64,000 nucleotides of DNA from Streptomyces flavofungini (GTDB lineage: Bacteria; Actinomycetota; Actinomycetes; Streptomycetales; Streptomycetaceae), in assembly GCF_030388665.1 (NCBI RefSeq), contig NZ_CP128846.1, positions 4,228,501 through 4,292,500 of the forward strand. Direction: 5' to 3'. Positions 13,230 to 56,270 of this stretch are shown here, piece after piece. Positions within the stretch are counted from its first letter, which is position 1; each line of letters opens with the position of its first letter. The translations under genes and the position numbers were made by a program. The notes beneath the pieces were generated by a model. That model had not been told where the DNA came from and made no database searches. It saw only the letters and a list, made by a program, of their open reading frames with translations.

Positions 13230-13333
13230 CCGGATCAGCCGTCGAGCGGATCAGCCGTCGGCCGGATCAATTCAACCGTCGACCGGATCAACCGTCGACC
13301 GGATGAGTCCTCGGCCGGATCAGTCCTCGGCCG
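13230..13333. repeat. Six-copy ~16-bp tandem repeat spanning the topA stop
   Basis: Units of the form CGGATCAGCCGTCGRC start at about 13231, 13247, 13263, 13284, 13300 and 13316. One carries a 5-bp insertion, and the last two have diverged to CGGATSAGTCCTCGGC. The final units lie inside topA and include its stop codon at 13320-13322. The array occupies the tmk-topA spacer. Confidence 0.8.
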
Positions 13334-16136
13334 CCGCCTTCGAAGCCGCCGCCTTCTTGGTGGCGGTCTTCTTGGCCGCAGTCGTCGTCTTCTTAGCCGC
13401 CGTTTTCTTGGCAGCTGTCTTCTTAGCCGCTGTTTTCTTCGCCGGGGCCTTCTTGGCCGCCTTCTTGGCGGTCTTCTTCGCGGGGCCCTTCGCCCGCTTC
13501 TCGGCGAGCAGCTCGAAGCCGCGCTCCGGAGTGATGTCCTCGACGCTGTCGCCGGACCGCAGGGTCGCGTTGGTCTCGCCGTCCGTCACGTACGGACCGA
13601 AGCGGCCGTCCTTGACGACGACGGGCTTGGCGCTGACCGGGTCCTCGCCCAGCTCCTTCAGCGGCGGCTTGGCCGCGGCGCGGCCGCGCTGCTTCGGCTT
13701 GGAGTAGATCTCCAGGGCCTCGTCGAGGGTGATGTTGAAGAGCTGTTCCTCGGTCTCCAGGGAGCGCGAGTCCGTGCCCTTCTTCAGGTACGGGCCGTAG
13801 CGGCCGTTCTGCGCGGTGATCTCCACGCCTTCGGCGTCGGTGCCGACGACGCGCGGCAGCGACATCAGCTTCAGGGCGTCCGCCAGGGTCACCGTGTCCA
13901 GGGACATGGTCTTGAAGAGCGACGCGGTGCGCGGCTTGACCGCGTTCTTGCCGGTCTTCGGGGTGCCCTCGGGAAGGACCTCGGTGACGTACGGGCCGTA
14001 GCGGCCGTCCTTGGCGATGATCTCGCGGCCCGTGCTGGGGTCCGTGCCGAGCGCGAAGTCGCCGCTGGGCTTGGCGAGCAGCTCTTCGGCGTACTCGACG
14101 GTCAGCTCGTCGGGCGCGAGGTCGTCGGGGACATCGGCGCGCTGGTGGCCCTCGGAGTCGCGCTCGCCGCGCTCGACGTAGGGGCCGTAGCGGCCGACAC
14201 GGAGCACGATGTCGTTGCCCACGGGGAAGGACGACACCTCGCGGGCGTCGATGGCGCCCAGGTCGGTGACGAGCTCCTTGAGGCCGCCCAGGTGGTCGCC
14301 GTCGCCGTTCCCGGCGTCGGCTGCGCCTCCGGAGGGCTCGCCCTCGCCGAAGTAGAAGCGCCTGAGCCACGGCACGGCCTGCGCCTCGCCGCGGGCGATG
14401 CGGTCGAGGTCGTCCTCCATCCGCGCGGTGAAGTCGTAGTCGACGAGCCGCCCGAAGTGCTTCTCCAGGAGGTTGACGACGGCGAAGGAGAGGAAGGACG
14501 GCACCAGGGCCGTGCCCTTCTTGAAGACGTAGCCGCGGTCGAGGATCGTGCCGATGATCGACGCGTACGTCGACGGGCGGCCGATCTCACGCTCTTCCAG
14601 CTCCTTGACCAGGGACGCTTCCGTGTACCTGGCCGGGGGCTTGGTGGCGTGACCGTCGACCGTGATCTCGTCGGCGGACAGCGCGTCGCCTTCGGAGACC
14701 TGCGGCAGCCGGCGCTCGCGGTCGTCCAGCTCGGCGTTCGGGTCGTCGGCGCCCTCTACGTAGGCCTTGAGGAAGCCGTGGAAGGTGATGGTCTTGCCGG
14801 ACGCGCTGAACTCGGCGTCGCGGCCGTCGGCGGCCCGGCCGCCGATCTTCACCGTGACGGAGTTCCCGGTCGCGTCCTTCATCTGGGAGGCGACGGTCCG
14901 CTTCCAGATCAGTTCGTAGAGCCGGAACTGGTCACCGGTCAGGCCGGTCTCGGCGGGCGTGCGGAAACGATCACCCGAGGGTCGGATCGCCTCGTGCGCC
15001 TCCTGCGCGTTCTTGACCTTCCCGGCGTACGTCCGCGGCTTGTCCGGCAGGTAGTCGCTGCCGTACAGCTGCGTGACCTGCGCGCGGGCCGCCGAGACCG
15101 CCGTGTCGGACAGCGTCGTGGAGTCCGTACGCATATAGGTGATGAAGCCGTTCTCGTACAGCTTCTGGGCCACCTGCATGGTGGCCTTCGCGCCGAAGCC
15201 GAGCTTGCGCGAGGCCTCCTGCTGCAGCGTCGTCGTACGGAAGGGGGCGTACGGCGAGCGGCGGTACGGCTTGGACTCGACCGAGCGTACGGAGAAGGCG
15301 GTCTGCTCCAGGGCGGCGGCGAGCGCGCGGGCGTTGGCCTCGTCCAGGTGCAGCGTGTTCTGGCTCTTCAGCTGCCCGAGCGAGTCGAAGTCGCGGCCCT
15401 GCGCGACGCGCTTGCCGTCGACCGTGGTGAGGCGGGCGACGAGCTGGGAGGGGTCGCTGGAGTCACCGGGGCGACCGGTGCCGAAGGTGCCGGTGAGGTC
15501 CCAGTACTCGGCGGAGCGGAAGGCGATGCGCTCGCGCTCGCGCTCGACGACGAGGCGGGTCGCCACGGACTGCACACGGCCCGCCGACAGGCGCGGCATG
15601 ACCTTCTTCCACAGCACCGGCGAGACTTCGTAGCCGTACAGGCGGTCCAGGATGCGGCGGGTCTCCTGGGCGTCGACCATGCGCTTGTTGAGCTCGCGCG
15701 GGTTGGCGACGGCGCCCTGGATCGCGTCCTTGGTGATCTCGTGGAACACCATGCGCTTGACCGGGACCTTGGGCTTCAGGACCTCGAGGAGGTGCCACGC
15801 GATGGCCTCGCCCTCGCGGTCCTCATCGGTGGCGAGGAAGAGTTCGTCGGAGTCCTTCAGCAGGTCCTTGAGCTTCTTGACCTGCGCCTTCTTGTCTGCG
15901 TTGACGACATAGATCGGCTGGAAGTCATGCTCGACGTCCACGCCGAGGCGGCGCACCTCGCCCGTGTACTTCTCGGGGACCTCCGCGGCGCCGTTGGGAA
16001 GGTCGCGGATGTGCCCGACGCTCGCCTCGACTACGTATCCGGGGCCGAGGTAGCCCTTGATCGTCTTCGCCTTGGCAGGCGACTCGACGATGACGAGTCG
16101 GCGGCCGCCCTGCGCGGTCTCGCTGGTCGGGGACAA
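13320..16136 (-). CDS. topA: DNA topoisomerase I
   Basis: A 938-residue type IA topoisomerase that relaxes negative supercoils. The N-terminal Toprim domain starts RRLVIVESPAKAKTIKGYL and contains LATDEDREGEAIAWH. The central domain holds SAGRVQSVATRLVV, and the catalytic tyrosine is Tyr334 in ITYMRTDSTTL. Instead of zinc fingers the C-terminal half carries repeated TopA-C modules (NGRYGPY, DGRFGPYV), typical of actinobacteria. It ends in a ~70-residue Lys/Ala tail (AKKTAAKKTAAKKTAAKK), which in Streptomyces and mycobacteria increases DNA binding and processivity. About 400 non-coding bases upstream hold its promoter region; TopA transcription is supercoiling-sensitive in S. coelicolor. Confidence 0.96.
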   Translation of the reverse strand: MSPTSETAQGGRRLVIVESPAKAKTIKGYLGPGYVVEASVGHIRDLPNGAAEVPEKYTGEVRRLGVDVEHDFQPIYVVNADKKAQVKKLKDLLKDSDELFLATDEDREGEAIAWHLLEVLKPKVPVKRMVFHEITKDAIQGAVANPRELNKRMVDAQETRRILDRLYGYEVSPVLWKKVMPRLSAGRVQSVATRLVVERERERIAFRSAEYWDLTGTFGTGRPGDSSDPSQLVARLTTVDGKRVAQGRDFDSLGQLKSQNTLHLDEANARALAAALEQTAFSVRSVESKPYRRSPYAPFRTTTLQQEASRKLGFGAKATMQVAQKLYENGFITYMRTDSTTLSDTAVSAARAQVTQLYGSDYLPDKPRTYAGKVKNAQEAHEAIRPSGDRFRTPAETGLTGDQFRLYELIWKRTVASQMKDATGNSVTVKIGGRAADGRDAEFSASGKTITFHGFLKAYVEGADDPNAELDDRERRLPQVSEGDALSADEITVDGHATKPPARYTEASLVKELEEREIGRPSTYASIIGTILDRGYVFKKGTALVPSFLSFAVVNLLEKHFGRLVDYDFTARMEDDLDRIARGEAQAVPWLRRFYFGEGEPSGGAADAGNGDGDHLGGLKELVTDLGAIDAREVSSFPVGNDIVLRVGRYGPYVERGERDSEGHQRADVPDDLAPDELTVEYAEELLAKPSGDFALGTDPSTGREIIAKDGRYGPYVTEVLPEGTPKTGKNAVKPRTASLFKTMSLDTVTLADALKLMSLPRVVGTDAEGVEITAQNGRYGPYLKKGTDSRSLETEEQLFNITLDEALEIYSKPKQRGRAAAKPPLKELGEDPVSAKPVVVKDGRFGPYVTDGETNATLRSGDSVEDITPERGFELLAEKRAKGPAKKTAKKAAKKAPAKKTAAKKTAAKKTAAKKTTTAAKKTATKKAAASKAAAED

Positions 16137-16553
16137 CTTCGCTCTTCTCTCCGGTCGACGCTCGGTGGGCAGTGCTGCGGCGGTGCGGTCCGGCGCCGTG
16201 GGGCGATGTGACCGCGCTTGCGTTGCGCTGACGCTGCGGAGTGTGACGGTACATCCCGCCCCCGTGTCAAACGGGAAAAGCCCGCAACGGCCACTCGAAC
16301 GGTAACCCGACTACCGCCATTCCTGCCGCCTGGGCTGGCGGTCACTGCCCCCTGGGCCCTGGGCGGTGCGGGTGCGGAGACTTTTTTTATGGTGCCCTTC
16401 GCGTGGCGTGCCGTCCATCGCGCTGCGGGCTCGTCCTCAAGCGCCGGACGGGCTTCACCCCGCCCACCCCGCCCTTTCCTCGCCGCGCGCGGCCTGCCCG
16501 GTCGCGTGGGCGTTCCGGTCACGCGGCCTGGCGTGCCGTGCGGCCGTGCCGCC
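16137..16553. other. Non-coding upstream region of topA
   Basis: No credible gene on either strand. The half near 16137-16310 is the topA 5' region. Around 16380 a short AT-rich run (CTTTTTTTATGG) stands out in otherwise GC-rich sequence. I see no strong hairpin. Confidence 0.4.
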
Positions 16554-16751
16554 TCAGAGGCGTGTGAAGCACCACACCGCGAGGGCCAGGGCGCCGGATC
16601 CCGCCAAGGTCGTGAGGGTCGCGGCGGCCGTGGGGTGGACGCCGTGGGCCACGGGGGCGCGGTGGGCGACGCGGGTGCCCGTCCACAGCAGCAGGCCCGC
16701 CCCGAACAGCGCGAACACCGTCCCAGCGAAGATCGCAGGTCCGCTCTCCAT
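16554..16751 (-). CDS. Small two-helix membrane protein of unknown function
   Basis: A 65-residue protein from ATG 16751, preceded by GGGAGG eight bases upstream. Two hydrophobic segments, AIFAGTVFALFGAGLLLWTG and TLTTLAGSGALALAVWCF, are separated by a short His-containing loop (AHRAPVAHGVHP). A longer frame starts at 16874, but its first 41 residues look non-coding. I do not recognise a named family. It sits between the methyltransferase gene and topA on the same strand, and its position and good ribosome binding site favour a real conserved small protein. Confidence 0.65.
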   Translation of the reverse strand: MESGPAIFAGTVFALFGAGLLLWTGTRVAHRAPVAHGVHPTAAATLTTLAGSGALALAVWCFTRL

Positions 16752-16920
16752 GCGCTTGGCCTCCCGCCCCGTCCGTGCGGCACCCGTCGGGTACCCCGGC
16801 TGGGGAGGCTGGCACGCCCGGGCGGCGGAAGCGCGAAATCCGGGTGAACGGGGGGCAGCTTCCGAGGCCCACAATGGCTGGATCGGCTCCCAGAGGGGCT
16901 GATTTCTCCCCTCTGGCCAG

Positions 16921-17012
16921 GTCTGCGGGCGGGCCGGTGCCGGCCTGTGGGCGGGCCGGTGCCGGCCTGTGGGCGGGCCGGTGCCGGCCTGTGGGCGGGC
17001 CCGCCCACAGGC
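16921..17012. repeat. 22-bp tandem repeat ending in a palindromic terminator, 3' of methyltransferase
   Basis: The 22-bp unit GCGGGCCGGTGCCGGCCTGTGG is repeated about 3.5 times. It ends in the perfect 26-bp palindrome made of GCCTGTGGGCGGG and its complement (16987-17012). The palindrome lies 2 bases beyond the stop of the leftward methyltransferase gene and would act as its terminator. The array appears to be an expansion of one arm of this hairpin. Confidence 0.8.
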
Positions 17013-17014
17013 CC

Positions 17015-18574
17015 CTACTGCCCCACCGGCTCCAGGAACCCCTGCTCCACCAGGAGCCGGATCTGCGCCGGGGTGCGGTCGCGCAGCAGCACCGCGTCCT
17101 CACCCATCAACTGGGCGATGGCATCGAGGATCCGGCCGGCGCTCAGCGTGCCGTCGCAGACGCCCGCGAAGCCCGCGCCCACGGTGTCCACCTGGGTGGC
17201 GCGCCGCATGCCGCGGTGCTGGCGCAGCACCACGTGCTCCGGGTCCTCCGCGCCGGGCAGGCCGATCTGCTCCTGCACCACGCCGTCGGCGAGCTTGAAG
17301 TGCTCGGCGAGCAGGGCCGCGTCGTCGTGCGCGCGCAGGTAGTCCTGCCGTGCGAAGAACGCCTGCACCGTCTCGCCGAGGGGCTGCTCGACGGGGTGCG
17401 TCCACTCCTCGACGGTCACGGACGGCTCGGCGGCGCCGGACTTGCGCAGGGTGATCCAGCCGAAGCCGACGCCCCGGGTCTTGCGGGCCTCGAACTCGTC
17501 GAGCCAGGCGTCGTACCGGGCGGCGTACTCGGCCGGGTCCGTGCGGTGGTCCCCGGCGTCGCGCAGCCACAGCTCGGCGTACTGCGTGACGTCCTGCACC
17601 TCGCGCTGCACGATCCACGCGTCACAGCCGCGCGGGACCCAGGAACGGACCCGCTCGGTCCACTCCTCGCCCTCCACGTGCTGCCAGTTGGCGAGAAACT
17701 GCGCGTACCCCCCTTCGTTCAACCGCTCCCCCGCCTCCTGAACGATCGAGCGGCACAGATCGTCCCCGCCCATGCCACCGTCCCGGTAGGTCAGCCGGGC
17801 GCCGGGCGAGATCACGAACGGCGGGTTGGACACGATCAGGTCGTACGTCGCGTCGCCCACGGGCTCGTACAGGGAGCCCTCCCGCAGGTCCGCCGCGGGC
17901 ACGCCGGACAGGGCGAGCGTGAGGCGGGTGCAGTGCAGGGCACGGGGGTTGAGGTCGGTCGCGGTGACCCGGGTGGCGTGCCGGGAGGCGTGCAGGGCCT
18001 GGATGCCGGAGCCGGTGCCGACGTCGAGGGCGCTCGCGGCGGGCGCCCGCACGGTGATGCCCGCGAGCGTCGTGGACGCACCGCCGACGCCGAGCACCAC
18101 GCCCTCGTCGCGGCTTCCGATGCCTCCGGCGCCGCCGACCGCGCACCCCAGGTCGGACACGATGAACCAGTCCTCGCCGTCCGGTCCGCCGTAGGGCCGC
18201 ACGTCGACGGTCGCCCGGAGCCCGTCGGCGCCTTCATCCCCGTCCACCGCGCCCTGCGCGCCGTCCGCACCCTCAGCGCGGACCAGCCAGCCGCTCTCCA
18301 GGAGCGCGCCCACCGGAAGTACGTCGGCCACGCGCGCGTGGGACACGGGACGCTGCAGCAGGAACAGCCGTACGAGCGACGCAAGGGCCCCGTCGCCCCG
18401 GGTGGCCCGGAGCGCGGGCACGGTCTCGCTGCGGGCGAGCGCGGTGTAGGCGGGCGCCCCGAGCAGTTCGAGCAGCCCGTCGGCGGTGAAGTCGGCGGCG
18501 AGGAGGGCTTCCCGCAGCCGCGCGGTGACGTCGGCGCGGTCGGACGAGGGCAAGGGCATGCTGGCGTTACTCAC
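17015..18574 (-). CDS. SAM-dependent methyltransferase (PrmC/MTS-like, substrate unknown)
   Basis: A 519-residue protein starting at GTG 18574, or possibly ATG 18559. The SAM-binding motif I, ALDVGTGSGIQALHA, lies near residue 190. The catalytic NPPF motif (DLIVSNPPFVISPG) follows ~60 residues later; it is typical of enzymes that methylate amide or amino nitrogen in glutamine or adenine (HemK/PrmC, RsmC-like). The ~170-residue N-terminal domain and ~200-residue C-terminal domain are as in the large actinobacterial DUF7059-type methyltransferases, longer than PrmC itself. The substrate cannot be deduced. Position between the lipoprotein and topA regions matches the conserved Streptomyces order. 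Confidence 0.82.
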   Translation of the reverse strand: MSNASMPLPSSDRADVTARLREALLAADFTADGLLELLGAPAYTALARSETVPALRATRGDGALASLVRLFLLQRPVSHARVADVLPVGALLESGWLVRAEGADGAQGAVDGDEGADGLRATVDVRPYGGPDGEDWFIVSDLGCAVGGAGGIGSRDEGVVLGVGGASTTLAGITVRAPAASALDVGTGSGIQALHASRHATRVTATDLNPRALHCTRLTLALSGVPAADLREGSLYEPVGDATYDLIVSNPPFVISPGARLTYRDGGMGGDDLCRSIVQEAGERLNEGGYAQFLANWQHVEGEEWTERVRSWVPRGCDAWIVQREVQDVTQYAELWLRDAGDHRTDPAEYAARYDAWLDEFEARKTRGVGFGWITLRKSGAAEPSVTVEEWTHPVEQPLGETVQAFFARQDYLRAHDDAALLAEHFKLADGVVQEQIGLPGAEDPEHVVLRQHRGMRRATQVDTVGAGFAGVCDGTLSAGRILDAIAQLMGEDAVLLRDRTPAQIRLLVEQGFLEPVGQ

Positions 18575-18704
18575 CCTCCAATTGTGACCCGCCCGCTCAA
18601 GACGGCGCCCCCGGCGCCACTGGGCACCGGGGGCACACGGCCGTACGGATGAGCGGACACCGGGACCCGTCCGGCTCCGCCTCCTCAGCGTGCCGCGGAC
18701 GCGG

Positions 18705-19277: not shown

Positions 19278-19556
19278 CGGATTGGTCCCTTCCATGGCTC
19301 TCGGCCCCGGAACTTACACGCCAACTGGGCGACAACCTCATGCCAGAGGTACGTTACGACCCCTATTGCAGCCATTTGCACCAAGGTGCGGGTACGAGAG
19401 AAGGCTCACGAGGCACGCTCCGCGACCCCGCGCACACGCCCGCGGGCGGACGGCGCCTCAAGAAGCGCCGCCCGCCCGCGTGTTGAGCGGATCCACCGCG
19501 TCCGACCGGTCCGGGTCACCCCGTCCCGGCCCGCCGCGGTCCCGCGTCGGCCTACG

Positions 19557-21959: not shown

Positions 21960-22683
21960 TCGTCCTCCTTGACGCTTGGGCTGAGCTCAAGATGTGGACG
22001 GATTGTAGGGAGCCGAACCTGATCAAAACAGTGCGCCGCAAACGGAATTGGCGTGGGAGTGCGTATCCGCAAATGATCGCGCCGCCGGATTGACCCCGAA
22101 AGCGGTAATGCCCCAAAAGCATTGACGCCGGCGCCGCCGCAGAGTTCCCTTAATGGATCACCGAAGTTCGGCCCACCGGAATCACTAGTAACACAATTCA
22201 AACCCCGAACGCCCGTCCCGATATCCGAACACGCTTGGCCCCTTGCAGCTCTCTGACCCCACCCGCCCCGAGGGCCCCACTCCTACCGGAGCGCAGCTGC
22301 CGGCCGACGGGGCTCGGCCCAGCCCGTCGTGGGGGTCCCCTCTGCTCCTCAAGAGCTTGGGGGAGTTTGAGGACGAGGCGCGACGCGCCGACAGGGGGCA
22401 TGGGGCGCGGCCCCATATGACCCACGGGGCATGGGGGCGCATCCCCGGGAGGGGCGGGCGGGTGGGGGAAGCGAAAAGCCCCGGCTCGGGCCGACGCGGC
22501 AGCGCACGGCAGCGAACTGGGGCACAGCAAGTACACCGGGGGCGGCCCCGGACCCGGCCAGGGTCAGGCCACCGCAAGCGTCAGGAAGCCAGAGCCATCA
22601 GGGCGTGGCGACCGTTCAGGGCAGCGCGACCGTCAGCGCGACGCGACCATCAGGACGACGAGACCGTCAGCGCGACGCGACCA
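21960..22683. other. Non-coding region between hppA and the anti-sigma gene
   Basis: About 720 bases with only short frames lacking coding character. 21960-22200 is relatively AT-rich and looks like the hppA promoter region. Around 22330-22390 is the Streptomyces-type extragenic motif with GTCCCCTCTGCTCCTCAAGAG and GGGGGAGTTTGAGGACGAGG. The right end holds the 30-bp duplication described separately. Confidence 0.5.
22002..22007 (-). promoter_or_regulatory. Candidate -10 element of hppA
   Basis: On the minus strand TACAAT lies 43 bases upstream of the hppA ATG, with CTGTTT 18 bases further upstream as a poor -35. The AT-rich surrounding supports a promoter, but the -35 match is weak. Confidence 0.3.
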
Positions 22684-22691
22684 TCAGGACG
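22628..22691. repeat. Exact 30-bp direct repeat containing the anti-sigma stop codon
   Basis: Two identical 30-bp copies (22628-22657 and 22662-22691), beginning GACCGTCAGCGCGACGCG, are separated by 4 bases. The right copy overlaps the last codons and the stop (22684-22686) of the leftward anti-sigma gene. Degenerate partial units extend left to about 22595. Confidence 0.85.
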
Positions 22692-23109
22692 TCGTGGGCC
22701 ACGTCATCCGAATCGACCCGCCGTTCTCGCCGGCGGTCACTTCCACGTCGTCCACGAGTCCGCTGATGACCGCAAGGCCCATCTCGTCCTCGCCCTCGGC
22801 CTCCAGGTCCTCCCCGGATCCGGGCCCAGCACCGGGCGCCCGCTCCCCGGGCGCGGAACGCGGAGCCTCATCGCCGACCTCGATGGAGAACTGCTTCTCC
22901 TCCTCCACGAGGGCAACCCGCACGGGCGCGGGAACCTCGGCGGCCTGATGCAGCCCGACGGCACGGGTGCAGGCCTCGCCGACCGCGAGCCTGACCTCGT
23001 CGAGGACCGCCTCGTCCACGCCCGCCCTGCGCGCGACCGCGGCCGCCACCAGGCGGGCGGTCCGGACGTGCTCGGGCAGCGCGCTGAAGCGGAGTTCAAC
23101 GGTGGCCAT
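22684..23109 (-). CDS. HATPase_c anti-sigma factor (ApgA-like, BldG partner)
   Basis: A 141-residue GHKL-type ATP-binding protein, starting MATVELRFSALPEH at ATG 23109. The N box is VRLAVGEACTRAV and the G-box region is DEMGLAVISGLVDDVEV. Between them is a Pro/Gly/Glu-rich insertion (about residues 85-110) that interrupts the usual ATP lid. Proteins of this class bind a sigma factor and phosphorylate the cognate antagonist. It lies 140 bases downstream of bldG on the same strand, the place of apgA (SCO3548 as I recall) in S. coelicolor, where it interacts with BldG. The two are probably co-transcribed in part. Confidence 0.87.
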   Translation of the reverse strand: MATVELRFSALPEHVRTARLVAAAVARRAGVDEAVLDEVRLAVGEACTRAVGLHQAAEVPAPVRVALVEEEKQFSIEVGDEAPRSAPGERAPGAGPGSGEDLEAEGEDEMGLAVISGLVDDVEVTAGENGGSIRMTWPTTS

Positions 23110-27155: not shown

Positions 27156-27459
27156 CGAGTGCCCTCTCCACCACCGCCTGGAGCGCGGCCTTGACCGGTC
27201 CGCTCGTCACAACCTTGTAGAGCAACCCGGCGAACGCCACGGTCGCGATGATCCCCATGGCGTACTCGGAAGTGACCATTCCGGAGTCCCGCGCCACGCT
27301 CCGCGCCCTACCCCACATCCGGCCCGGCGGCCGCGCCGAGCTCTCCGAACTCACGCGACGCACCGGCCACTCCCACCGCATCCACCGCATCCACCGCGCC
27401 ATCCGCGTCACGTACCGCCGAGCGCGCGCACGCACCTTGCCCCACATTTCAACCCCCAT
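27142..27459 (-). CDS. DUF4244 Flp-pilin-like small membrane protein
   Basis: A 105-residue protein from ATG 27459. The basic N-terminal half (RARARRYVTRMARWMRW) is followed by the Flp-like core DSGMVTSEYAMGIIATVAFAGLLYKVVTSG, with Gly-Met/Thr-Ser-Glu-Tyr resembling the prepilin peptidase site and Glu5 of pilins, then a short tail ALQAVVERALDVQF. In actinobacteria DUF4244 proteins occupy the place of the Flp major pilin (M. tuberculosis Rv3656c/Rv3657c). The long basic leader before the cleavage-like site is typical of the Streptomyces version. It is preceded by a repeat-filled 330-base gap and could have its own promoter. Confidence 0.82.
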   Translation of the reverse strand: MGVEMWGKVRARARRYVTRMARWMRWMRWEWPVRRVSSESSARPPGRMWGRARSVARDSGMVTSEYAMGIIATVAFAGLLYKVVTSGPVKAALQAVVERALDVQF

Positions 27460-27788
27460 GGAATCTCTGTCAGTTGTTCGCGGCTGGTCCTTCACCGCTG
27501 GTTCTTCACCGCTGGTTCTTCACCGCTGGTTCTTCACCGCTGGTTCTTCACCGCTGGTTCTTCACCGCTGGTTTCTTGCTACTGGCACTTCGCTGCCGGA
27601 CTTCACAGCCAGCTCTTCGCTGCTGGCCGCTCGCTGCTGGCTACTGGCTGCTCGCCGTTGACTCTCCGAGAGCCGTGGTCTCGAAGCCGGTCGTGCGGTC
27701 CCGCGCCCCCGATGTCCTGGCACCCGTACGACATTTCGCCCAGGCGGCCCGCAGGACGCCCGTCCGCGCACCGGGGCGCGGACCCGCC
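27460..27788. repeat. Gap with 14-bp tandem repeat between tadC and the pilin gene
   Basis: CTGGTTCTTCACCG is repeated six times in register from 27484 to 27567 (the first copy has one change). It then decays into related CTGG/CTGCTGG-rich sequence to about 27660. The remaining ~130 bases next to the tadC stop hold no gene. Because this is the only wide gap in the Tad operon and lies upstream of the pilin gene, the repeat may influence pilin expression. Confidence 0.85.
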
Positions 27789-35626: not shown

Positions 35627-35685
35627 CCCGGGGGCCCGCGACCGCGCCGCCACCCGCCCCGGCCACGGGCACGCGACCGCCGCTC

Positions 35686-35800
35686 CCCGGCCGGGACAGG
35701 CCGGCCCACCGCAGCCCCTGGCCAGGACAGGCCGACCCGCCGCAGCCCCTGGCCAGGAAAGGCCGGCCCGCCGCCGTCTGCCCTCGGACAGGCCTACCGC
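35686..35800. repeat. 31-bp tandem repeat reaching the deacetylase stop codon
   Basis: About three units built on GGCCAGGACAGGCCGACC/CGCCGCAGCCCCT begin near 35689, 35720 and 35751. A fourth, degraded unit (CGGACAGGCCTACCGC) contains the stop codon 35794-35796 of the leftward gene. It occupies the whole convergent spacer. Confidence 0.78.
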
Positions 35801-43562: not shown

Positions 43563-44060
43563 ATGAGCGCACCCGACGGTCCCGTCGGCACCGAACGCAG
43601 CCTCGGCCAGCTCGTCTCCGCGGCGAGCAAAGAGATGTCGGAGCTGGTGCACGATGAGATCGCGCTGGTCAAGGCCCAGCTGACGCAGGACGTCAAGCGC
43701 GGTGCGATCGGCAGCGCCGCGTTCATCGCGGCCATCGCCGTCCTCATCTTCTCGCTGCCGATGCTGAGCTTCGCCCTGGCCTATGGCATCCGCACTTGGA
43801 GCGGGTTGAACATGGCCATCTGCTTCGTGCTGTCGTTCGCCGCGAATGTCCTGGTGGCCGGAATTCTCGCGTGGATCGGCGTGATCTACGCGAAGAAGGC
43901 CGCGAAGGGCAAGGGCCCCCAGAAGGCCGCGGCCGCCGCCAAGGAGACCGCCGCCGTCCTCGGGAACGTCAAGCCGCACCCGCGCGCCGTGGCCCCTGCG
44001 GGGGCCCTTGAGCTGGAGGCCGGTGAGCGGGCCGACGCTGTGGCACGCTCGACTACATGA
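43563..44060 (+). CDS. Phage-holin-like DUF1469 (actinobacterial holin superfamily III) membrane protein
   Basis: A 165-residue protein with GAGGAG upstream. The N-terminal amphipathic helix LGQLVSAASKEMSELVHDEIALVKAQL is followed by two membrane segments (AAFIAAIAVLIFSLPMLSFALAYG and MAICFVLSFAANVLVAGILAWIGV), then a basic KKAAKGKGPQ tail. This is the DUF1469/YqjE-like layout; despite the name it is a chromosomal membrane protein of unknown function, not part of a phage. It is coupled by a 4-base overlap to the hydrolase gene, matching M. tuberculosis Rv3669-Rv3670. Confidence 0.87.
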   Translation: MSAPDGPVGTERSLGQLVSAASKEMSELVHDEIALVKAQLTQDVKRGAIGSAAFIAAIAVLIFSLPMLSFALAYGIRTWSGLNMAICFVLSFAANVLVAGILAWIGVIYAKKAAKGKGPQKAAAAAKETAAVLGNVKPHPRAVAPAGALELEAGERADAVARSTT

Positions 44061-45007
44061 CGGACCAAGTCCCACCCCCGGACAGGGCCACCGCGCCGAC
44101 CCCCGCGACCGTACGGATCGAGGGCCCCTGGACGCACCGGGACGTCGCCGCCAACGGCGCCCGCTTCCACATCGCGGAGGCAGGTGAGGGCCCGCTGGTG
44201 CTCCTCCTGCACGGCTTCCCGCAGTTCTGGTGGGCCTGGCGGCACCAGCTCGTCGCGCTCGCCGACGCGGGCTTCCGGGCGGTGGCGATGGACCTGCGCG
44301 GCGTGGGCGGCAGCGACCGCACCCCGCGCGGCTACGACCCCGCGAACCTCGCCCTGGACATCACCGGCGTCGTACGGTCCCTCGGCGAGCCCGACGCCGC
44401 GCTCGTCGGGCACGACCTGGGCGGCTACCTCGCCTGGACGGCCGCCGTGATGCGGCCCAAGCTGGTGCGCCGCCTCGCCGTCTCCTCGATGCCGCACCCG
44501 CGCCGCTGGCGCGCGGCGATGCTGCGGGACCGCAAGCAGACGGCGGCCGGGTCGTACGTGTGGGGCTTCCAGCGGCCGTGGCTGCCGGAGCGTCAGCTGG
44601 TCGCGGACGACGGGGCCCTGGTGGGGCGGCTGGTCCGGGACTGGTCGGGGCCGCGCCTGCCGGACGACGAGGCCGTGGAGACGTACCGCCGCGCCATGTG
44701 CATCCCCTCGACGGCGCACTGCTCGATCGAGCCGTACCGCTGGATGGTGCGCTCCCTCGCCCGGCCCGACGGGATCCAGTTCAACCGGCGCATGAAGCGG
44801 CCGGTGCGGGTGCCGACGCTGCATCTGCACGGCTCCCTGGACCCGGTGATGCGCACCCGCAGCGCGGCGGGGTCCGGCGAGTACGTCGAAGCGCCCTACC
44901 GCTGGCGGCTGTTCGACGGCCTCGGGCACTTCCCGCACGAGGAGGACCCGGTGGCGTTCTCCAACGAGCTGGTGTCGTGGCTGAAGGACCCCGAGCCGGA
45001 CCGGTAG
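44057..45007 (+). CDS. Alpha/beta hydrolase, epoxide-hydrolase-like (EphE type)
   Basis: A 316-residue enzyme whose ATG overlaps the holin-like stop. Motifs: oxyanion HGFPQFWWAWRHQL, VAMDLRGVGGSDR, nucleophile Asp in LVGHDLGGYLAW (Asp instead of Ser indicates epoxide hydrolase or haloalkane dehalogenase chemistry), cap domain to ~residue 235, then acid Asp in HLHGSLDPVM and His in FDGLGHFPHEED. Substrate unknown; the HGxP and GHDxGG pattern favours epoxide hydrolase. The stop codon falls inside the first unit of a tandem repeat. Confidence 0.88.
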   Translation: MTDQVPPPDRATAPTPATVRIEGPWTHRDVAANGARFHIAEAGEGPLVLLLHGFPQFWWAWRHQLVALADAGFRAVAMDLRGVGGSDRTPRGYDPANLALDITGVVRSLGEPDAALVGHDLGGYLAWTAAVMRPKLVRRLAVSSMPHPRRWRAAMLRDRKQTAAGSYVWGFQRPWLPERQLVADDGALVGRLVRDWSGPRLPDDEAVETYRRAMCIPSTAHCSIEPYRWMVRSLARPDGIQFNRRMKRPVRVPTLHLHGSLDPVMRTRSAAGSGEYVEAPYRWRLFDGLGHFPHEEDPVAFSNELVSWLKDPEPDR

Positions 45008-45095
45008 AGGCCCCGGGCCGGTGGAGGTCCCGACCCCGACCGGTGGAGATCCCCGACCGGAGCGGCGGAGATCCGGGGCGGTTCCGGCGGAGGTC
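44996..45095. repeat. Degenerate GACCGGTGGAGATCCC tandem repeat starting at the hydrolase stop
   Basis: About five related units of 16-22 bp (GACCGGTAGAGGCCCC, GGCCGGTGGAGGTCCCGACC, GACCGGTGGAGATCCCC, GACCGGAGCGGCGGAGATCC, CGGTTCCGGCGGAGGTCCG). The first contains the TAG of the hydrolase gene (45005-45007). No frame with coding character is seen in it. Confidence 0.75.
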
Positions 45096-45232
45096 CGATG
45101 ACACGGTTCACGGCTCCCTGGCCGCCACCTCGGGGGAACTACTGTCCTACGAACGCCAATTGCCTGCCGCATAGGCCAATTGGGGCCCTTGGGCGCGGTT
45201 ACCGACCTTGAGGCACGGGCACACGTCCGGGT

Positions 45233-50002: not shown

Positions 50003-50035
50003 CGGGGCCGCCCCCTGAACCAGGGGGCGGCCCCG
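50003..50035 (+). terminator. Terminator of crp
   Basis: A perfect 15-bp stem, CGGGGCCGCCCCCTG (50003-50017) and its complement (50021-50035), with a 3-nt loop, starting 42 bases after the crp stop. Confidence 0.88.
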
Positions 50036-50134
50036 TCGTCGTATCCCCGCGAGCACGCCCGCGCCCCGCGCCACCAGTCGACTTCAGGGCGGAATTTACG
50101 TGCCCCGGGGCGCGGCACGCTGCACAGTGGGCCC

Positions 50135-50971: not shown

Positions 50972-51110
50972 GAAGTCCTCCGGCGCGTCCGCAGGGCCCG
51001 CGCCGGACCGATCCTCCGGACAGCCCCGGATGAGCCCGTGCTCGCGCAGCTTCCCGGGCGAGCCCGTGCCCCCCCCCCACAGCCCCGGAGGACCCCGCGC
51101 CCCCGCAGCC

Positions 51111-51941
51111 CTAAATGAGCCCGTGCTCCCGCAAGTAGTCCAGCTGCGCCCGCACCGACAGCTCCGCCGCGGGCCACAGCGAGCGGTCCACGTCCGCGTA
51201 CACGTGCGCCACGACGTCGCCCGGCGCCACGTACCCGTTCTCGACCGCCGTCTCCACCTGGGCCAGGCGGTGCGCCCGGTGCGCCAGATAGAACTCGACC
51301 GCGCCCTGGGCGTCGTCGAGCACCGGGCCGTGGCCCGGGAGCACCGTGTGCACGCCGTCGTCGACCGTGAGGGAGCGCAGGCGGCGCAGCGAGTCCAGGT
51401 AGTCGCCGAGGCGGCCGTCGGGGTGGGCGACGACCGTGGTGCCGCGGCCCAGGACCGTGTCGCCCGTCAGGACGGCCCGGTCGGCGGGCAGGTGGAAGCA
51501 GAGGGAGTCGGCGGTGTGTCCGGGCGTCGGTACGACGCGCAGCTCCAGGCCGCCCGTCGTGATCACGTCGCCCGCCGCGAGGCCCTCGTCGCCGAGGCGC
51601 AGCGCCGGGTCGAGGGCGCGGACCTTGGTGCCGGTCAGCTCCGCGAAGCGCGCGGCGCCCTCGGCGTGGTCGGGGTGGCCGTGCGTCAGCAGGGTCAGGC
51701 CGACCCGCGCGCCCCGCTCCTCGGCCGTCGCGACGACACGGGCGAGGTGGGCCTCGTCGAGGGGGCCCGGGTCGATGACGACCGCGAGGCCGGAGCCGGG
51801 CTCCGCGACGATCCAGGTGTTGGTGCCGTCCAGGGTCATCGCGGACGGGTTGGGCGCGAGGACGTTGACGGCGCGGGCGGTGGCGGGACCGCTGAGTACG
51901 CCGCCGCGGGGCTGGCCGGGGAGTGCGGCTGCTTCGGTCAT
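51111..51941 (-). CDS. Metallo-beta-lactamase-fold hydrolase
   Basis: A 276-residue protein. The zinc motif THGHPDHAEGA, His in VVPTPGHTADSLCF, Asp in VLTGDTVLG and His in VLPGHGPVLDD define a binuclear MBL-fold hydrolase. The C-terminal helices (AHRAHRLAQVETAV) resemble the LACTB2/winged-helix end of glyoxalase-II-like and RNase-like members. It is the end of a leftward group DUF4177-RidA-Nudix-MBL, corresponding to mycobacterial Rv3677c-Rv3678c. Substrate unknown. Confidence 0.88.
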   Translation of the reverse strand: MTEAAALPGQPRGGVLSGPATARAVNVLAPNPSAMTLDGTNTWIVAEPGSGLAVVIDPGPLDEAHLARVVATAEERGARVGLTLLTHGHPDHAEGAARFAELTGTKVRALDPALRLGDEGLAAGDVITTGGLELRVVPTPGHTADSLCFHLPADRAVLTGDTVLGRGTTVVAHPDGRLGDYLDSLRRLRSLTVDDGVHTVLPGHGPVLDDAQGAVEFYLAHRAHRLAQVETAVENGYVAPGDVVAHVYADVDRSLWPAAELSVRAQLDYLREHGLI

Positions 51942-52002
51942 GCGGGGGTGGCTCCCGTCGGGTCCGGGTGGGTGCGGTGCCGGTGGGCGGGGGCCGGCCG
52001 CC

Positions 52003-52929
52003 TCATGCGGTGCCGCCCACCGGGATGTGCTTGGTGAACTCGTCGTGGCCCGGCCAGGACAGGACCAGCTCGCCGTCCTCCAGGCGGGCCCGGGCGATGA
52101 CGGGGGTCAGGTCGCGGGACGCGGCTGCGGCCAGGGCGTCGGCGGCGGTGGCGGTGCCGTCGAGCTGGCGCAGCGTGGCGATGGTCGGCGGCATCATCAG
52201 GAGTTCGCCGCGGTCGTAGCGCTCGGCGGCCTGCCGGGGGCGGATCCAGACGGTGCGGTCGGCCTCGGTGGAGACGTCGCGGGTGCGCTGGCCCGCGGGC
52301 AGGACGGCGACGAAGAAGAACGTGTCGTAGCGGCGGGGTTCGAACTCCGGGGTGATCCAGCGGGCCCACGCGCCGAGCAGATCGCTGCGCAGGACCAGGC
52401 CCCGGCGGTCGAGGAACTCGGCGAAGGACACCTCGCGGGCGACCAGGGCGACGCGGTCGGCCTCCCAGTCGTCGCCGGTGGTGTCGCCGACGACGGTGTC
52501 CGGGGTCGGCCCGGCGAGCAGCACGCCCGCCTCCTCGAACGTCTCGCGGACGGCCGCGCACACGATGGCCTGGGCCGCCGCCTCGTCCACACCCAGGCGG
52601 GCCGCCCACGCGGTGCGCGGCGGGCCCGCCCAGCGGACGTGGTGGTCGTCGTCGCGCGGGTCGACGCCGCCACCGGGGTAGGCGTAGGCGCCGCCCGCGA
52701 ACGCCATCGAGGCGCTGCGGCGCAGCATGTGCACTTCGGGGCCCGGGCCGTGCGCTTCGGGCCCCGCCCCGTGCCCCTCGGGCCCCTCGGGCCCCGCGCC
52801 GGTGTCCGGTGTGTCCCGCAGGAGCATGACCGTGGCCGCCGGGCGGGGCGCTGCAGGCGTCAGTTCGCCGGCCGCGAGGGCACGGACACGGTCGGGCCAC
52901 TCCGGTGGGTACCACTGCCCATTCGCCAT
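52003..52929 (-). CDS. Nudix hydrolase (NUDT19/acyl-CoA-type)
   Basis: A 308-residue protein. The Nudix domain is split by insertions: PAATVMLLRDTP and SMAFAGGAYAYPGGGVDPRDDD precede AIVCAAVRETFEEAGVLLAG, giving R-E-T-F-E-E-A-G in the Nudix helix. A Gly/Pro/His-rich insertion (GPEGPEGHGAGPEAHGPGPE) between strands is repetitive. The long spacing and ITPEFEPRRYDTFFFVAVLP resemble NUDT7/19-like CoA-hydrolysing enzymes. It lies 62 bases upstream of the MBL gene and 55 bases downstream of ridA, probably one operon. Confidence 0.85.
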   Translation of the reverse strand: MANGQWYPPEWPDRVRALAAGELTPAAPRPAATVMLLRDTPDTGAGPEGPEGHGAGPEAHGPGPEVHMLRRSASMAFAGGAYAYPGGGVDPRDDDHHVRWAGPPRTAWAARLGVDEAAAQAIVCAAVRETFEEAGVLLAGPTPDTVVGDTTGDDWEADRVALVAREVSFAEFLDRRGLVLRSDLLGAWARWITPEFEPRRYDTFFFVAVLPAGQRTRDVSTEADRTVWIRPRQAAERYDRGELLMMPPTIATLRQLDGTATAADALAAAASRDLTPVIARARLEDGELVLSWPGHDEFTKHIPVGGTA

Positions 52930-52984
52930 GGGCGGAGGCTATCCGGTGTGGTGCGGATGTTCGAGAGGTAGTTGGTGCGTACCG

Positions 52985-53455
52985 CTACTGCGGCAGCAGC
53001 TCCACCTGGATCTCGACCTCGACCGGCGCGTCCAGCGGGAGCACCGCGACGCCCACGGCGCTGCGGGCGTGCACGCCCTTGTCGCCGAGGACCTCGCCGA
53101 GGAGTTCGCTGGCGCCGTTGAGGACGGCGGGCTGGCCGGTGAAGTCGGGGGCCGAGGCGACGAATCCGGTGACCTTCACGACGCGCGCGATCCGGTCCAG
53201 CTCACCCGCGACGGACTTGACCGCGGCCAGCGCGTTCAGCGCGCAGGTGCGGGCCAGGTCCTTGGCCTCCTCCGGCGTGACCTCCGCGCCGACCTTGCCG
53301 GTGACCGGCAGCTTGCCGTCCACCATGGGCAGCTGGCCGGCCGTGTACACGTACACGCCCGACTGGACCGCGGGCCGGTACGCCGCGAGCGGCGGGACGA
53401 CGCCGGGCAGGGTCAGACCGAGCTCGGCGATCCGGGCCTCGACCACACCGCTCAT
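52985..53455 (-). CDS. RidA family protein
   Basis: A 156-residue protein from ATG 53455, coupled to the DUF4177 gene by a 4-base overlap. It is the longer RidA/YjgF subfamily: LPPLAAYRPAVQSGVYVYTAGQLPM, LARTCALNALAAVKSV, RIARVVKVTGFVASAPDF, ARSAVGVAVLPLDAPVEVEIQ. The catalytic Arg usually seen before the last strand (as in CxRxxV) is replaced by Ala-Arg-Ser-Ala, so enamine/imine deaminase activity should still be considered but may differ. Counterpart of Rv3678c. Confidence 0.88.
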   Translation of the reverse strand: MSGVVEARIAELGLTLPGVVPPLAAYRPAVQSGVYVYTAGQLPMVDGKLPVTGKVGAEVTPEEAKDLARTCALNALAAVKSVAGELDRIARVVKVTGFVASAPDFTGQPAVLNGASELLGEVLGDKGVHARSAVGVAVLPLDAPVEVEIQVELLPQ

Positions 53456-53613
53456 GCCTGCTTCTCCCGCTTCAGGTAGGCCACGAGCTGCTCGGGGTTG
53501 TTCGGCCCGGGCACGACCTGGACGAGCTCCCAGCCGTCCTCGCCCCAGGTGTCCAGAATCTGCTTCGTGGCATGGACGAGCAGCGGCACGGTTGCGTATT
53601 CCCACTTGGTCAT
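53452..53613 (-). CDS. DUF4177 small protein
   Basis: A 53-residue protein, MTKWEYATVPLLVHATKQ at the start, with GEDGWELVQVVPG in the middle: the Trp-Glu-Tyr and Gly-Trp-Glu-Leu-Val pattern of DUF4177. Its stop overlaps the ridA start. Function unknown; the family is small and probably a binding or structural domain. The frame extends upstream to 54708 only as the antisense of the ArsA-like gene. Confidence 0.88.
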   Translation of the reverse strand: MTKWEYATVPLLVHATKQILDTWGEDGWELVQVVPGPNNPEQLVAYLKREKQA

Positions 53614-53709
53614 ACGGCGACTGTAATGCCTGGCACCGGGGGCCTCACGAACGCCTGAGGTCCCGGGCCTCATGCGTAGCCCGCCGGGGGACTGGTTAGG
53701 CTCGAATAC

Positions 53710-54684
53710 GTGAGCAGGCTCCAGGTCGTCAGCGGCAAGGGCGGTACCGGCAAGACCACGGTGGCCGCGGCCCTCGCGCTCGCCCTCGCGACGGAGGGCA
53801 AACGCACCCTCCTCGTGGAGGTCGAGGGCAGACAGGGCATCGCGCAGCTCTTCGAGACAGAGGCGCTGCCCTACGAGGAGCGGAAGATCGCCGTCGCTCC
53901 GGGGGGCGGGGAGGTGTACGCCCTCGCCATCGACCCCGAACTGGCCCTTCTGGACTACCTCCAGATGTTCTACAAACTGGGCGGCGCGGGCCGCGCCCTG
54001 AAGAAGCTCGGCGCCGTCGACTTCGCCACCACCATCGCGCCGGGCCTGCGCGACGTCCTGCTGACCGGCAAGGCCTGCGAGGCGGTGCGCCGCAAGGACA
54101 AGCGGGGGCGGTACGCGTACGACTGCGTGGTCATGGACGCCCCGCCGACGGGCCGCATCACCCGCTTCCTCAACGTGAACGACGAGGTGGCGGGGCTCGC
54201 GAAGATCGGACCGATACACAATCAGGCACAGGCCGTCATGCGGGTCCTCAAGTCCCCTGAGACGGAGGTGCACTTGGTGACGCTCCTGGAGGAGATGCCC
54301 GTCCAGGAGACCGTGGACGGCATCGCCGAGCTGCGCGCCGCCGACCTTCCGGTGGGCCGCGTCATCGTGAACATGGTGCGCCCGGCCCTCCTCGACGAGG
54401 CGGACCTGGAGCTCGGCCTGGAGCGCACGCCGCGTACGGCCATCGCGAAGACCCTGGCGGCCGCGGGGCTCGGCGGGGCCCGTGGCGCCGCGGGCCGCCT
54501 CGTGGACCCGCTCCTCGCCCAGGCCGCCGAGTACGCCGAGCGGTACGCCCTGGAGGGCGCCCAGCGGGCCGTGCTCGGCGAGCACGGCCTGCCCCTGCAC
54601 GAACTGCCCCTGCTGGCCGACGGACTCGACCTGGGGGGCCTGTACGAGCTCGCGGCGGAGCTGCGGCGGCAGGGGGTCTCGTGA
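53710..54684 (+). CDS. ArsA-family anion-transporting/GET3-like ATPase, first of a pair
   Basis: A 324-residue protein starting at GTG 53710. P-loop VVSGKGGTGKTTVAAALALAL with the signature Lys, TLLVEVEGRQGIAQLF as switch I, and YDCVVMDAPPTGRITRFL as the Walker B/switch II. It lacks the ArsA metal-binding cysteines, so arsenite transport is unlikely. It pairs with the second ArsA-like gene 57 bases downstream, as Rv3679-Rv3680 do in M. tuberculosis, where the two form a heterodimer linked to redox and glycerol-metabolite stress. Immediately downstream of the pair is wblA on the opposite strand. Confidence 0.9.
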   Translation: MSRLQVVSGKGGTGKTTVAAALALALATEGKRTLLVEVEGRQGIAQLFETEALPYEERKIAVAPGGGEVYALAIDPELALLDYLQMFYKLGGAGRALKKLGAVDFATTIAPGLRDVLLTGKACEAVRRKDKRGRYAYDCVVMDAPPTGRITRFLNVNDEVAGLAKIGPIHNQAQAVMRVLKSPETEVHLVTLLEEMPVQETVDGIAELRAADLPVGRVIVNMVRPALLDEADLELGLERTPRTAIAKTLAAAGLGGARGAAGRLVDPLLAQAAEYAERYALEGAQRAVLGEHGLPLHELPLLADGLDLGGLYELAAELRRQGVS

Positions 54685-54741
54685 GCGCGGCGTACGGCAC
54701 GACACCACTCATCACGTCATCACGCGGAGACCAGGAAACCC

Positions 54742-56178
54742 ATGAGCCTCGATCCGGCACGTGACCCGCTCGACGTCGACGCCCTGCTCGACGATCCGAA
54801 GACCCGCATCGTGGTCTGCTGCGGCTCCGGGGGCGTCGGCAAGACGACCACCGCGGCCGCCCTCGGCCTGCGTGCCGCCGAGCGGGGCCGCACGGTCGTG
54901 GTCCTGACGATCGACCCCGCGCGCAGGCTGGCGCAGTCCATGGGGATCGACTCGCTGGACAACGTGCCGCGGCGGGTGAAGGACGTCCAGGGCGCCGGGG
55001 AACTGCACGCCATGATGCTCGACATGAAGCGGACCTTCGACGAGATCGTCGAGGCGCACGCGGACGCGGACCGGGCCAGGGCGATCCTCTCCAACCCCTT
55101 CTACCAGTCGCTCTCGGCGGGCTTCGCGGGCACGCAGGAGTACATGGCGATGGAGAAGCTGGGGCAGCTGCGCTCCCGCGACGAGTGGGACCTGATCGTG
55201 GTGGACACCCCGCCCTCGCGCAGCGCCCTCGACTTCCTGGACGCGCCGAAGCGGCTGGGTTCGTTCCTGGACGGGAAGCTGATCCGGCTCCTGATGGCCC
55301 CGGCGAAGGTGGGCGGCCGGGCCGGGATGAAGTTCCTGAACGTCGGGATGTCGATGATGACGGGGGCCCTCGGCAAGCTGCTCGGGGGGCAGCTCCTGCG
55401 GGACGTGCAGACCTTCGTGGCCGCGATGGACACCATGTTCGGCGGCTTCCGCAAGCGGGCCGACGCGACGTACCGGCTGCTCCAGGCGCCGGGGACGGCG
55501 TTCTTGGTGGTGGCGTCGCCGGAGCGGGACGCGCTGCGGGAGGCGGCGTACTTCGTGGAGCGGCTCGCGGCGGACGACATGCCGCTCGCGGGTCTGGTCC
55601 TGAACCGGGTGCACGGCAGCGGCGCGGCCGAGCTCTCGGCGGAGCGGGCGCTGGCCGCGGCGGAGGGGCTGGAGGAGAAGTCCGGGGAGGGCCCGGAGGC
55701 GAAGCCCGGAGAAGGCCCGGAGGCGAAGCCCGGAGAAGGCCCGGAGGCGAAGCCCGGAGAAGGCCCGGAGGCGAAGCCCGGGGAGGGTCCGGAGGCGAAG
55801 CCCGGAGCGGCCGCCGAGGAAAATCTTGAGGCGGTCGGCATTGTGGATCAGGAGGGCGGGAAGGTTGGACTGCGTAACTCCTCAGAGTCCGAGGCTCCCA
55901 ACTCCCCTGAGGCGAACGGCTCTTCTCCTTCAACCAAAGACAACGACTCCGGCGCGTCCGTCGAGCAGCTGACGGCGGGCCTGCTGCGGCTGCACGCCGA
56001 GCGCATGCGGCTGCTCGCCCGTGAGCGGCACACCCGGGACCGCTTCACGGCGCTGCACCCGGAGGTGGCTGTGGCCGAGGTGGCGGCGCTGCCGGGCGAC
56101 GTGCACGACCTCGACGGCCTGCGCGCGATCGGCGAACGGCTCGCGTCGACGGGCGCCGCTGCCGCCGAGCAAGGCTGA
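54742..56178 (+). CDS. ArsA-family ATPase, second of a pair, with repeat insertion
   Basis: A 478-residue protein. P-loop VVCCGSGGVGKTTTAAALGL, then VVVLTIDPARRLAQSMG and LIVVDTPPSRSALDFL. Between the ATPase core (to ~residue 310) and the C-terminal helix region (LRLHAERMRLLARERH) is a low-complexity insertion, residues ~310-400. It begins with six near-identical 8-residue units EGPEAKPG. The 24-bp DNA repeat and disordered composition suggest a recently expanded linker. Forms a presumed heterodimer with the preceding gene. Confidence 0.9.
   Translation: MSLDPARDPLDVDALLDDPKTRIVVCCGSGGVGKTTTAAALGLRAAERGRTVVVLTIDPARRLAQSMGIDSLDNVPRRVKDVQGAGELHAMMLDMKRTFDEIVEAHADADRARAILSNPFYQSLSAGFAGTQEYMAMEKLGQLRSRDEWDLIVVDTPPSRSALDFLDAPKRLGSFLDGKLIRLLMAPAKVGGRAGMKFLNVGMSMMTGALGKLLGGQLLRDVQTFVAAMDTMFGGFRKRADATYRLLQAPGTAFLVVASPERDALREAAYFVERLAADDMPLAGLVLNRVHGSGAAELSAERALAAAEGLEEKSGEGPEAKPGEGPEAKPGEGPEAKPGEGPEAKPGEGPEAKPGAAAEENLEAVGIVDQEGGKVGLRNSSESEAPNSPEANGSSPSTKDNDSGASVEQLTAGLLRLHAERMRLLARERHTRDRFTALHPEVAVAEVAALPGDVHDLDGLRAIGERLASTGAAAAEQG
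55684..55810 (+). repeat. 24-bp in-frame coding repeat in the second ArsA-like gene
   Basis: About five copies of GAGGCGAAGCCCGGAGAAGG-type 24-bp units run from 55684 to 55806, encoding EGPEAKPG. Copies differ by GGA/GGG synonymous changes only, which indicates recent expansion and probable length variation between strains. Confidence 0.85.
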
Positions 56179-56270
56179 CTCGGCGACCAAGGCCGCCTGC
56201 CACCGATCGCGGCTCGCTCGCCGACCAAGGCTGCCTGCCACCGATCGCGGCCGCCTCTCCGGTCAAGGCT
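56160..56270. repeat. 38-bp tandem repeat at the 3' end of the ArsA pair
   Basis: CGACCAAGGCYGCCTGCCACCG is present at 56184 and 56222 with a period of 38. A degenerate third copy follows at about 56260, and a degenerate copy before 56184 (CCGAGCAAGGCTGA) contains the stop codon of the ArsA-like gene. No coding potential seen. Confidence 0.75.

Follow-up and report, generated by a model that had tools for sequence, protein, structure and literature searches.

Repetitive extragenic palindromic (REP) elements and bacterial interspersed mosaic elements (BIMEs), which are often found just past stop codons, form a conserved palindromic family. Among tandem repeats, those of Borgs, which are archaeal extrachromosomal elements, are described in the available part of the source as independent in origin, fast evolving and specific in sequence to each locus, with units that are divisible by three in genes and mostly not so in intergenic regions (PMC9879509). 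Bacterial variable number tandem repeats (VNTRs) or minisatellites, such as the mycobacterial interspersed repetitive unit (MIRU)-VNTR loci, are presented in the excerpts at hand as head-to-tail units of 10-80 bp, which grow by duplication and vary in copy number or presence among relatives (PMC2734929; PMC6749651), and Streptomyces coelicolor figures in a table of prokaryote satellites (PMC6749651). In the same genus, the 8-16 bp repeats of the chloramphenicol cluster of S. venezuelae vary in copy number by strain, and the accessible text describes them as upstream or intergenic, with no link to stop codons (PMC7357120). Here, we analyze a stretch of 64,000 nucleotides of Streptomyces flavofungini (contig NZ_CP128846.1, positions 4,228,501 to 4,292,500; hereafter the window), in which tandem arrays adjoin the stop codons of topA and several other genes. 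We argue, with a probability of about 0.68, that these arrays are ordinary minisatellites, which come from repeated short tandem duplication and are sorted by selection for silence.

Arrays were detected with Tandem Repeats Finder. Gene calls came, independently of the annotation, from a custom codon-usage finder for which the long frames of the same genome served as the training set. Three Streptomyces sets were used, that is, the host genome of S. flavofungini (9.36 Mb, 72% GC), sampled as the window plus 60 stretches (1.264 Mb with 930 confident genes), the topA loci of many species, and another genome of the same genus (G012). The topA set ("80 loci") represents one chromosomal neighbourhood and includes five loci titled Actinacidiphila, Wenjunlia or Kitasatospora. 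Outside the genus, seven genomes were compared with small samples of 44-180 gene ends each; four of them (G033, G121, G127 and G132) are high-GC genomes (71-73%) of the same family or order, and three of the other genera at 71-73% GC belong to the same family.

The Streptomyces arrays are Borg-like in two respects, as far as the consulted part of that account goes. Among arrays with a match of at least 90%, the period is divisible by three in 157 of 160 within genes and in 90 of 213 between genes, and the first unit lies within or partly within the gene end, as reflected by 95 crossings at 1477 stops in the three sets pooled and by the ramp described below. The Borg repeats, in contrast, are perfect, A-rich, equally common in genes and nearly absent from the host (PMC9879509), whereas the Streptomyces arrays are GC-rich, often degenerate (many with a match of only 73-90%), chromosomal and mainly located in 3' tails. 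With their head-to-tail units of roughly 7-100 bp they are minisatellites, and they are like VNTRs in unit arrangement, in growth by duplication and in their variation between related species, but the portions of the VNTR accounts at hand mention neither a stop-codon boundary nor a genus-wide 3'-end excess (PMC2734929; PMC6749651). Like MIRUs, they occupy the junctions between genes and leave the genes on either side intact; however, the MIRU is described, in the part of the source available, as a single dispersed family, apparently mobile, that inserts at start codons and has a coupled reading frame (PMC12548453), while the Streptomyces units are local and copied from the gene end. Different genes have different units, so no single dispersed family is seen, and start codons are crossed at only 9 of 1611 starts in the pooled sets, against the 95 crossings at stops. 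The conserved palindromic unit of REP elements and BIMEs was not found either, since the folding of the units does not depart from that of shuffled ones (mean z 0.12, 133 arrays), although one array, next to a methyltransferase gene, does adjoin a palindrome. In a search of a limited literature collection, we met no report of stop-codon-bounded arrays in Streptomyces.

Tandem arrays at stop codons

The association of arrays with stops is genuine, extends across the genus and far exceeds chance. In the host genome, 117 of 545 3' regions have an array; when the intergenic part was shuffled (first order) three times, the count dropped to 11, 13 and 16. An array lies across the stop in 47 cases, compared with 3-4 in the shuffles. 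Stops are crossed far more often than starts in every set: 46 crossings at 598 stops versus 5 at 634 starts in the host genome, 36 at 691 versus 4 at 767 at the topA loci, and 13 at 188 versus 0 at 210 in G012. For the three sets pooled, arrays cover a fraction of 0.126 (0.106-0.146) of the sequence that lies no more than 100 nt from a stop and no less than 150 nt from a start; the fraction is 0.048 (0.033-0.062) in deep intergenic sequence and 0.027 in sequence no farther than 60 nt from a start. The excess at stops over other intergenic positions, on which the first-pass annotation of the window had staked its reading, is therefore present. The genes with an array across the stop end in TGA, TAG and TAA in 96, 20 and 5 cases, and the remaining genes in 1403, 435 and 93, so no striking preference for a type of stop codon is seen among the former.

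The gene end is copied into its own downstream tail. The last 11 nt of the gene were found again, with no more than one mismatch, in the next 90 nt at 21 of 604 gene ends in the host genome, 30 of 776 at the topA loci and 4 of 190 in G012, while the tail-swapped controls gave 0.0-1.6 recurrences on average (1.4 for the host genome in another draw). In total, the recurrence was found in 55 of 1570 cases in the Streptomyces samples and in 2 of 590 in the other genomes (G033 1/180, G051 0/52, G048 0/75, Escherichia coli K-12 0/95, G121 0/75, G127 1/69 and G132 0/44), and the four high-GC genomes account for 2 of 368. For stop crossings, the contrast between genera is less clear-cut. Outside the genus they were counted at 5/194 (G033), 1/73 (G121), 5/70 (G127), 0/52 (G132), 4/74 (G048), 0/59 (G051) and 1/99 (E. 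coli) stops, and the difference between Streptomyces (95/1477) and the four high-GC genomes (11/389) has p = 0.0045. In G127 and G048, stop-crossing arrays occur and yet the last 11-mer hardly ever recurs, in what are small samples. A further search for two copies of one common gene end, 4-34 nt apart, gave 43 of 151 genomes of the genus (7 of 151 for the reversed pattern) and 6 of 134 genomes from other genera within the class (2 of 134 reversed), as raw counts that are not normalized for the gene ends per genome.

Then, is the stop codon a target of duplication or only a boundary? The excess of downstream 11-mer duplication was followed by start position over 1214 3' ends. It is 0.3% at -30, 0.6% at -22, 1.8% at -17 and 2.4% at -14, reaches 3.4% at -11, where the 11-mer ends at the stop, and then runs through 4.2% at -8, 3.4% at -5 and 3.9% at 0 to 4.1% at +5, 4.9% at +10, 5.7% at +15, 4.3% at +20, 4.8% at +30 and 4.0% at +40. 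No peak is present at the stop among these ends; the excess rises over the last ~20 nt, that is, over about one unit length, and then forms a plateau. A ramp without a peak is the pattern predicted if duplications fall anywhere and persist when they are silent. Consequently, the stop codon looks like a boundary and not a target, and the notion that it serves as an anchor for the arrays, as was first proposed, is not upheld. The frame filter that acts within genes is absent where the stop is included: the periods of 46 stop-containing arrays leave remainders of 0, 1 and 2 on division by three in 14, 15 and 17 cases.

With respect to the best downstream hairpin, 36 arrays are located wholly between the stop and the hairpin (21.9 expected) and 26 beyond it (16.2 expected), whereas 40 partly overlap it (57.7 expected) and 25 contain it (31.2 expected). 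The arrays thus tend to spare the hairpin.

Turnover among species

The 3' end of topA could be read in 100 of 111 rows (two ran off the contig and nine had no topA frame). An array across the stop is present in 19 rows, two of which are the host genome read twice, and an array within 150 nt in 38. The unit length and sequence vary by species, and the first part of the array repeats that species' own last codons and stop; species share the same last few codons whether or not they have an array, but the downstream copies vary in spacing and sequence. The suggestion, made from the window alone, that gene 3' termini are duplicated over and over together with the stop holds, and the duplication has happened independently at the same gene in many species. 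Genes differ in this respect, since among ten orthologous genes near topA the proportion of species in which an array spans the stop ranges from 0/74 and 0/69 up to 14/80 (topA). In addition, a strong, terminator-like stem-loop 20-90 nt past the topA stop is common to many Streptomyces (L027-L061 and others), and the stretch from the stop to the stem-loop varies wildly.

The turnover is rapid. For species that are at least 95% identical, an array no farther than 100 nt from the stop in one is accompanied by an array in the other with a frequency of 0.58 over a base of 0.30 (four locus pairs; both ends have arrays in 7 pairs of ends, and one end only in 10). The corresponding values are 0.43 (base 0.21) at 91-95%, 0.19 (base 0.17) at 88-91% and 0.22 (base 0.20) below, so array presence is uncorrelated below about 91% identity. 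Insertions right after stops in close pairs contain copies of the gene end, for example a five-fold 10-bp unit in L081 that is absent in L035, and differing degenerate arrays were found in L039, L040 and L056. For the host genome, the nearest topA 3' match among the matches listed is at 87%, and close species differ in their arrays. Because the aligner puts gaps right after the conserved gene, which biases their positions, the indel positions were not used as evidence. In 11 close pairs, the near-stop sequence is the least constrained class, with an identity of 0.805 and an aligned fraction of 0.828, compared with 0.918 and 0.97 in genes.

Arrays in the window

The first-pass annotation had listed seven arrays in the window as placed at stop codons or just past them. 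All seven exist, but only four contain the stop, and the other three lie 13-43 nt beyond it. The topA array (13229..13333, reverse strand) has ~6 copies of a 16-bp unit, reaches 14 nt into the gene and includes the stop codon at 13320-13322; its unit resembles the gene's last codons, the stop and a few following bases. topA itself (13320..16136, reverse strand) encodes a type I DNA topoisomerase (NCBIfam TIGR01051, 810.6 bits, exceeding the cut-off). A 17-bp array of 5.3 copies (22598..22688, reverse strand) starts at the stop 22684-22686, 5 nt inside a gene for a histidine-kinase-like ATPase domain (22684..23109, reverse strand; Pfam HATPase_c_2, 109.6 bits), which had been taken for apgA-like. 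On the forward strand, a compound array with periods of 17, 22 and 11 bp (44996..45097) spans the stop 45005-45007 of an alpha/beta-hydrolase gene (44057..45007, forward strand; Pfam Abhydrolase_1, 87 bits), its segment 44996-45032 reaching 12 nt into the gene. Also on the forward strand, a 38-bp array of 2.5 copies (56163..56274) spans the stop 56176-56178 and reaches 16 nt into the gene of an ArsA/Get3-type ATPase, a BagB equivalog (54742..56178, forward strand; NCBIfam NF053621, 667.3 bits, cut-off 521). This gene has a second, internal array of 5.7 in-frame copies of 24 bp (55671-55807).

The other three are all on the reverse strand. The 31-bp array of 3.2 copies near the deacetylase-like gene (35676..35774), thought to be at the stop, lies 19 nt past the stop 35794-35796, which only a degenerate partial unit reaches, as read from the sequence. 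The methyltransferase array (16923..17001; 22 bp, 3.6 copies) had been placed 2 nt after the stop 17015-17017; what begins there is the left arm of a perfect 28-nt palindrome with 14-bp arms (16985..17012, reverse strand), located between stop and array, and the 22-bp repeats begin 13 nt from the stop. The second arm of this palindrome belongs to the first unit of the array, as though half a terminator stem had been multiplied. Past holB (stop 8240-8242, reverse strand; NCBIfam NF005926, 544 bits), arrays of 19/38 bp (8100..8220, composed of 8100-8196 and 8184-8220) are separated from the stop by 43 and 19 nt, respectively.

The list was also selective. At a score of at least 50 and a period of at least 7, the window contains 45 arrays, 28 in genes and 17 outside. 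All 28 in-gene arrays have a period divisible by three, for example those in the Lys/Ala-rich tail of topA (13387-13506) and in the thymidylate-kinase gene 9630-13040 (10542-10919). Among the 17 outside genes, 13 are within 100 nt of a stop (two depend on low-scoring gene calls) and five include the stop, the fifth being a weak 13-bp duplication of 1.9 copies (9608..9632, reverse strand) at the end of the thymidylate-kinase gene that had gone unlisted. The remaining four are farther than 100 nt from a stop. One of them is the cleanest minisatellite of the window, 6.5 copies of 14 bp with a match of 98% (27483..27573, no strand assigned), which is a counter-example 215 nt from the nearest called stop, and two more arrays are close by (27373-27397 and 27617-27657).

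Discussion

If the arrays are ordinary minisatellites, short tandem duplications with a unit mostly of about 10-60 bp would arise, perhaps by slipped-strand pairing or illegitimate recombination. A unit spanning the stop would put the extra copy after the first stop, so that the protein would be unchanged whatever the unit length. A duplication within a gene would need a length divisible by three and would also have to be tolerated, an upstream one would strike the start, the ribosome site or the promoter, and one in a terminator hairpin would break the hairpin. Under these constraints on genes, upstream regions and hairpins, duplications would survive in the gap between stop and terminator, and since an array could enter the gene by up to about one unit, the stop would look like its starting point or like a part of it. 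Later rounds of duplication would enlarge and degrade the arrays, which would be lost again within roughly 10% sequence divergence, and the arrays would do nothing for the cell.

This explanation is supported by the ramp without a peak, the frame filter within genes, the preponderance of stop over start crossings, the sparing of hairpins, the low constraint near stops, the turnover and the copying of the topA end into its tail. Several observations weigh against it. Stop-containing arrays number 86 of 373, where random placement that permits entry into the gene by one unit gives 54.2; with placement confined to 30 nt around the stop, the expectation is 71.9 (86 of 185), and among near-perfect arrays 18 of 75 contain the stop versus 9.9 expected. 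Taken by itself, G012 shows no significant excess (13 versus 10.6 expected). Slower decay of the in-gene copy is insufficient as the cause, because the excess is equally large in near-perfect arrays, and part of it may be due to leftward growth of arrays up to the point where the gene halts them, and to the terminator that closes the other side. Intergenic periods are divisible by three in 42%, above one third, so that some arrays called intergenic may be coding. In 16 close pairs, a strict test for exact tandem insertions found 12 among 156 indels, and 1 in the 3' class; it demands an adjacent copy of the same length, and thus misses multi-unit and degenerate gains such as that in L081. Finally, the near-stop coverage is 2.64-fold (1.97-3.87) that of deep intergenic sequence, whose identity in the 11 close pairs (0.838) is similar to the 0.805 near stops, but of which only 4.5% is unalignable, compared with 17%. 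Taken together, the higher coverage, the similar substitution divergence and the larger unalignable share mean that relaxed constraint alone may not suffice and that there may be a mutational excess at gene ends. Minisatellites under selection for silence do not account for the 2.6-fold higher array content near stops relative to deep intergenic sequence, nor for the high rate of the genus.

The transcribed untranslated tail of Streptomyces genes could be a site of directed tandem duplication, in which a mutational process tied to transcription termination or to naked nascent RNA would copy gene ends together with their stop, and 3' untranslated regions (UTRs) would be built from local gene copies and turn over within about 10% divergence; we consider this possible, albeit doubtful. 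A mutational hot spot at gene 3' ends, where ribosome-free transcript, RNA-DNA hybrids, polymerase pausing at terminators or replication-transcription collisions would promote tandem duplication, more so in Streptomyces, appears unlikely. It would be consistent with the coverage near stops, with the unalignable share at nearly equal substitution divergence, with the stop-containing excess among young arrays and with the near lack of gene-end duplication elsewhere, including three genera of the same family at 71-73% GC. However, genes on the leading and lagging strands do not differ (an array within 100 nt at 73/315 and 55/230 genes), the ramp has no peak at the stop, deep intergenic sequence may itself be constrained by unannotated features, and G127, from another genus of the family, has stop-crossing arrays as frequently as Streptomyces.

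It is considerably less probable that the arrays are kept for a function, as multiple terminators, as stabilisers of the mRNA 3' end or as back-up stop codons in all frames. A stop triplet is present in many units, and genes with arrays have slightly stronger best downstream hairpins (mean -26.6 versus -25.2 kcal/mol; 73% versus 61% below -22). Nevertheless, units fold no better than shuffled ones, and a hairpin within the array is rarer than expected, so arrays acting as terminators or hairpins are not supported, and the terminator or mRNA 3'-end role that had been raised for the window leaves no sign in computed folding. Back-up stop codons are rejected by the even distribution of periods over the three frames, and array presence is not conserved beyond about 91% identity. 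The fast turnover and the folding result would thus speak against a conserved role, as judged from sequence.

Two readings are already contradicted: the insertion at stop codons of a dispersed element, either mobile or interspersed (MIRU-, REP- or BIME-like), despite the resemblance in position to MIRUs at gene junctions in the part of that account at hand (PMC12548453), and an artefact of chance and composition in a 72% GC genome with a lenient repeat finder, although chance arrays do occur in GC-rich sequence (11-16 of 545 shuffled 3' regions). Against the latter stand the shuffles, the tail swap (21/604 versus 0-1.4) and the far lower counts in other 71-73% GC genomes. Against the former, the unit is different at every locus, which argues for a process and not a dispersed element, as had been proposed from the window, and the first copy is the same as the gene's own end. 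In the host genome, the methyltransferase array matches nothing beyond itself and its inverted copy except for one partial stretch of 46 nt at 80%, and among the matches listed from 41 genomes none covers more than ~20 nt of the non-coding part of the topA array.

Implications

A large share of Streptomyces 3' tails, as seen in the 117 of 545 regions of the host genome, is recently copied gene end and not inherited sequence. This matters for predicting terminators, comparing 3' UTRs and typing strains within the genus. Since the stop marks the onset of silence, these tails are a natural reporter of short tandem duplication, and genome sequences can reveal how often such duplications occur and how long they are. 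If the near-stop excess is mutational, tandem duplication would be tied to the end of translation or transcription.

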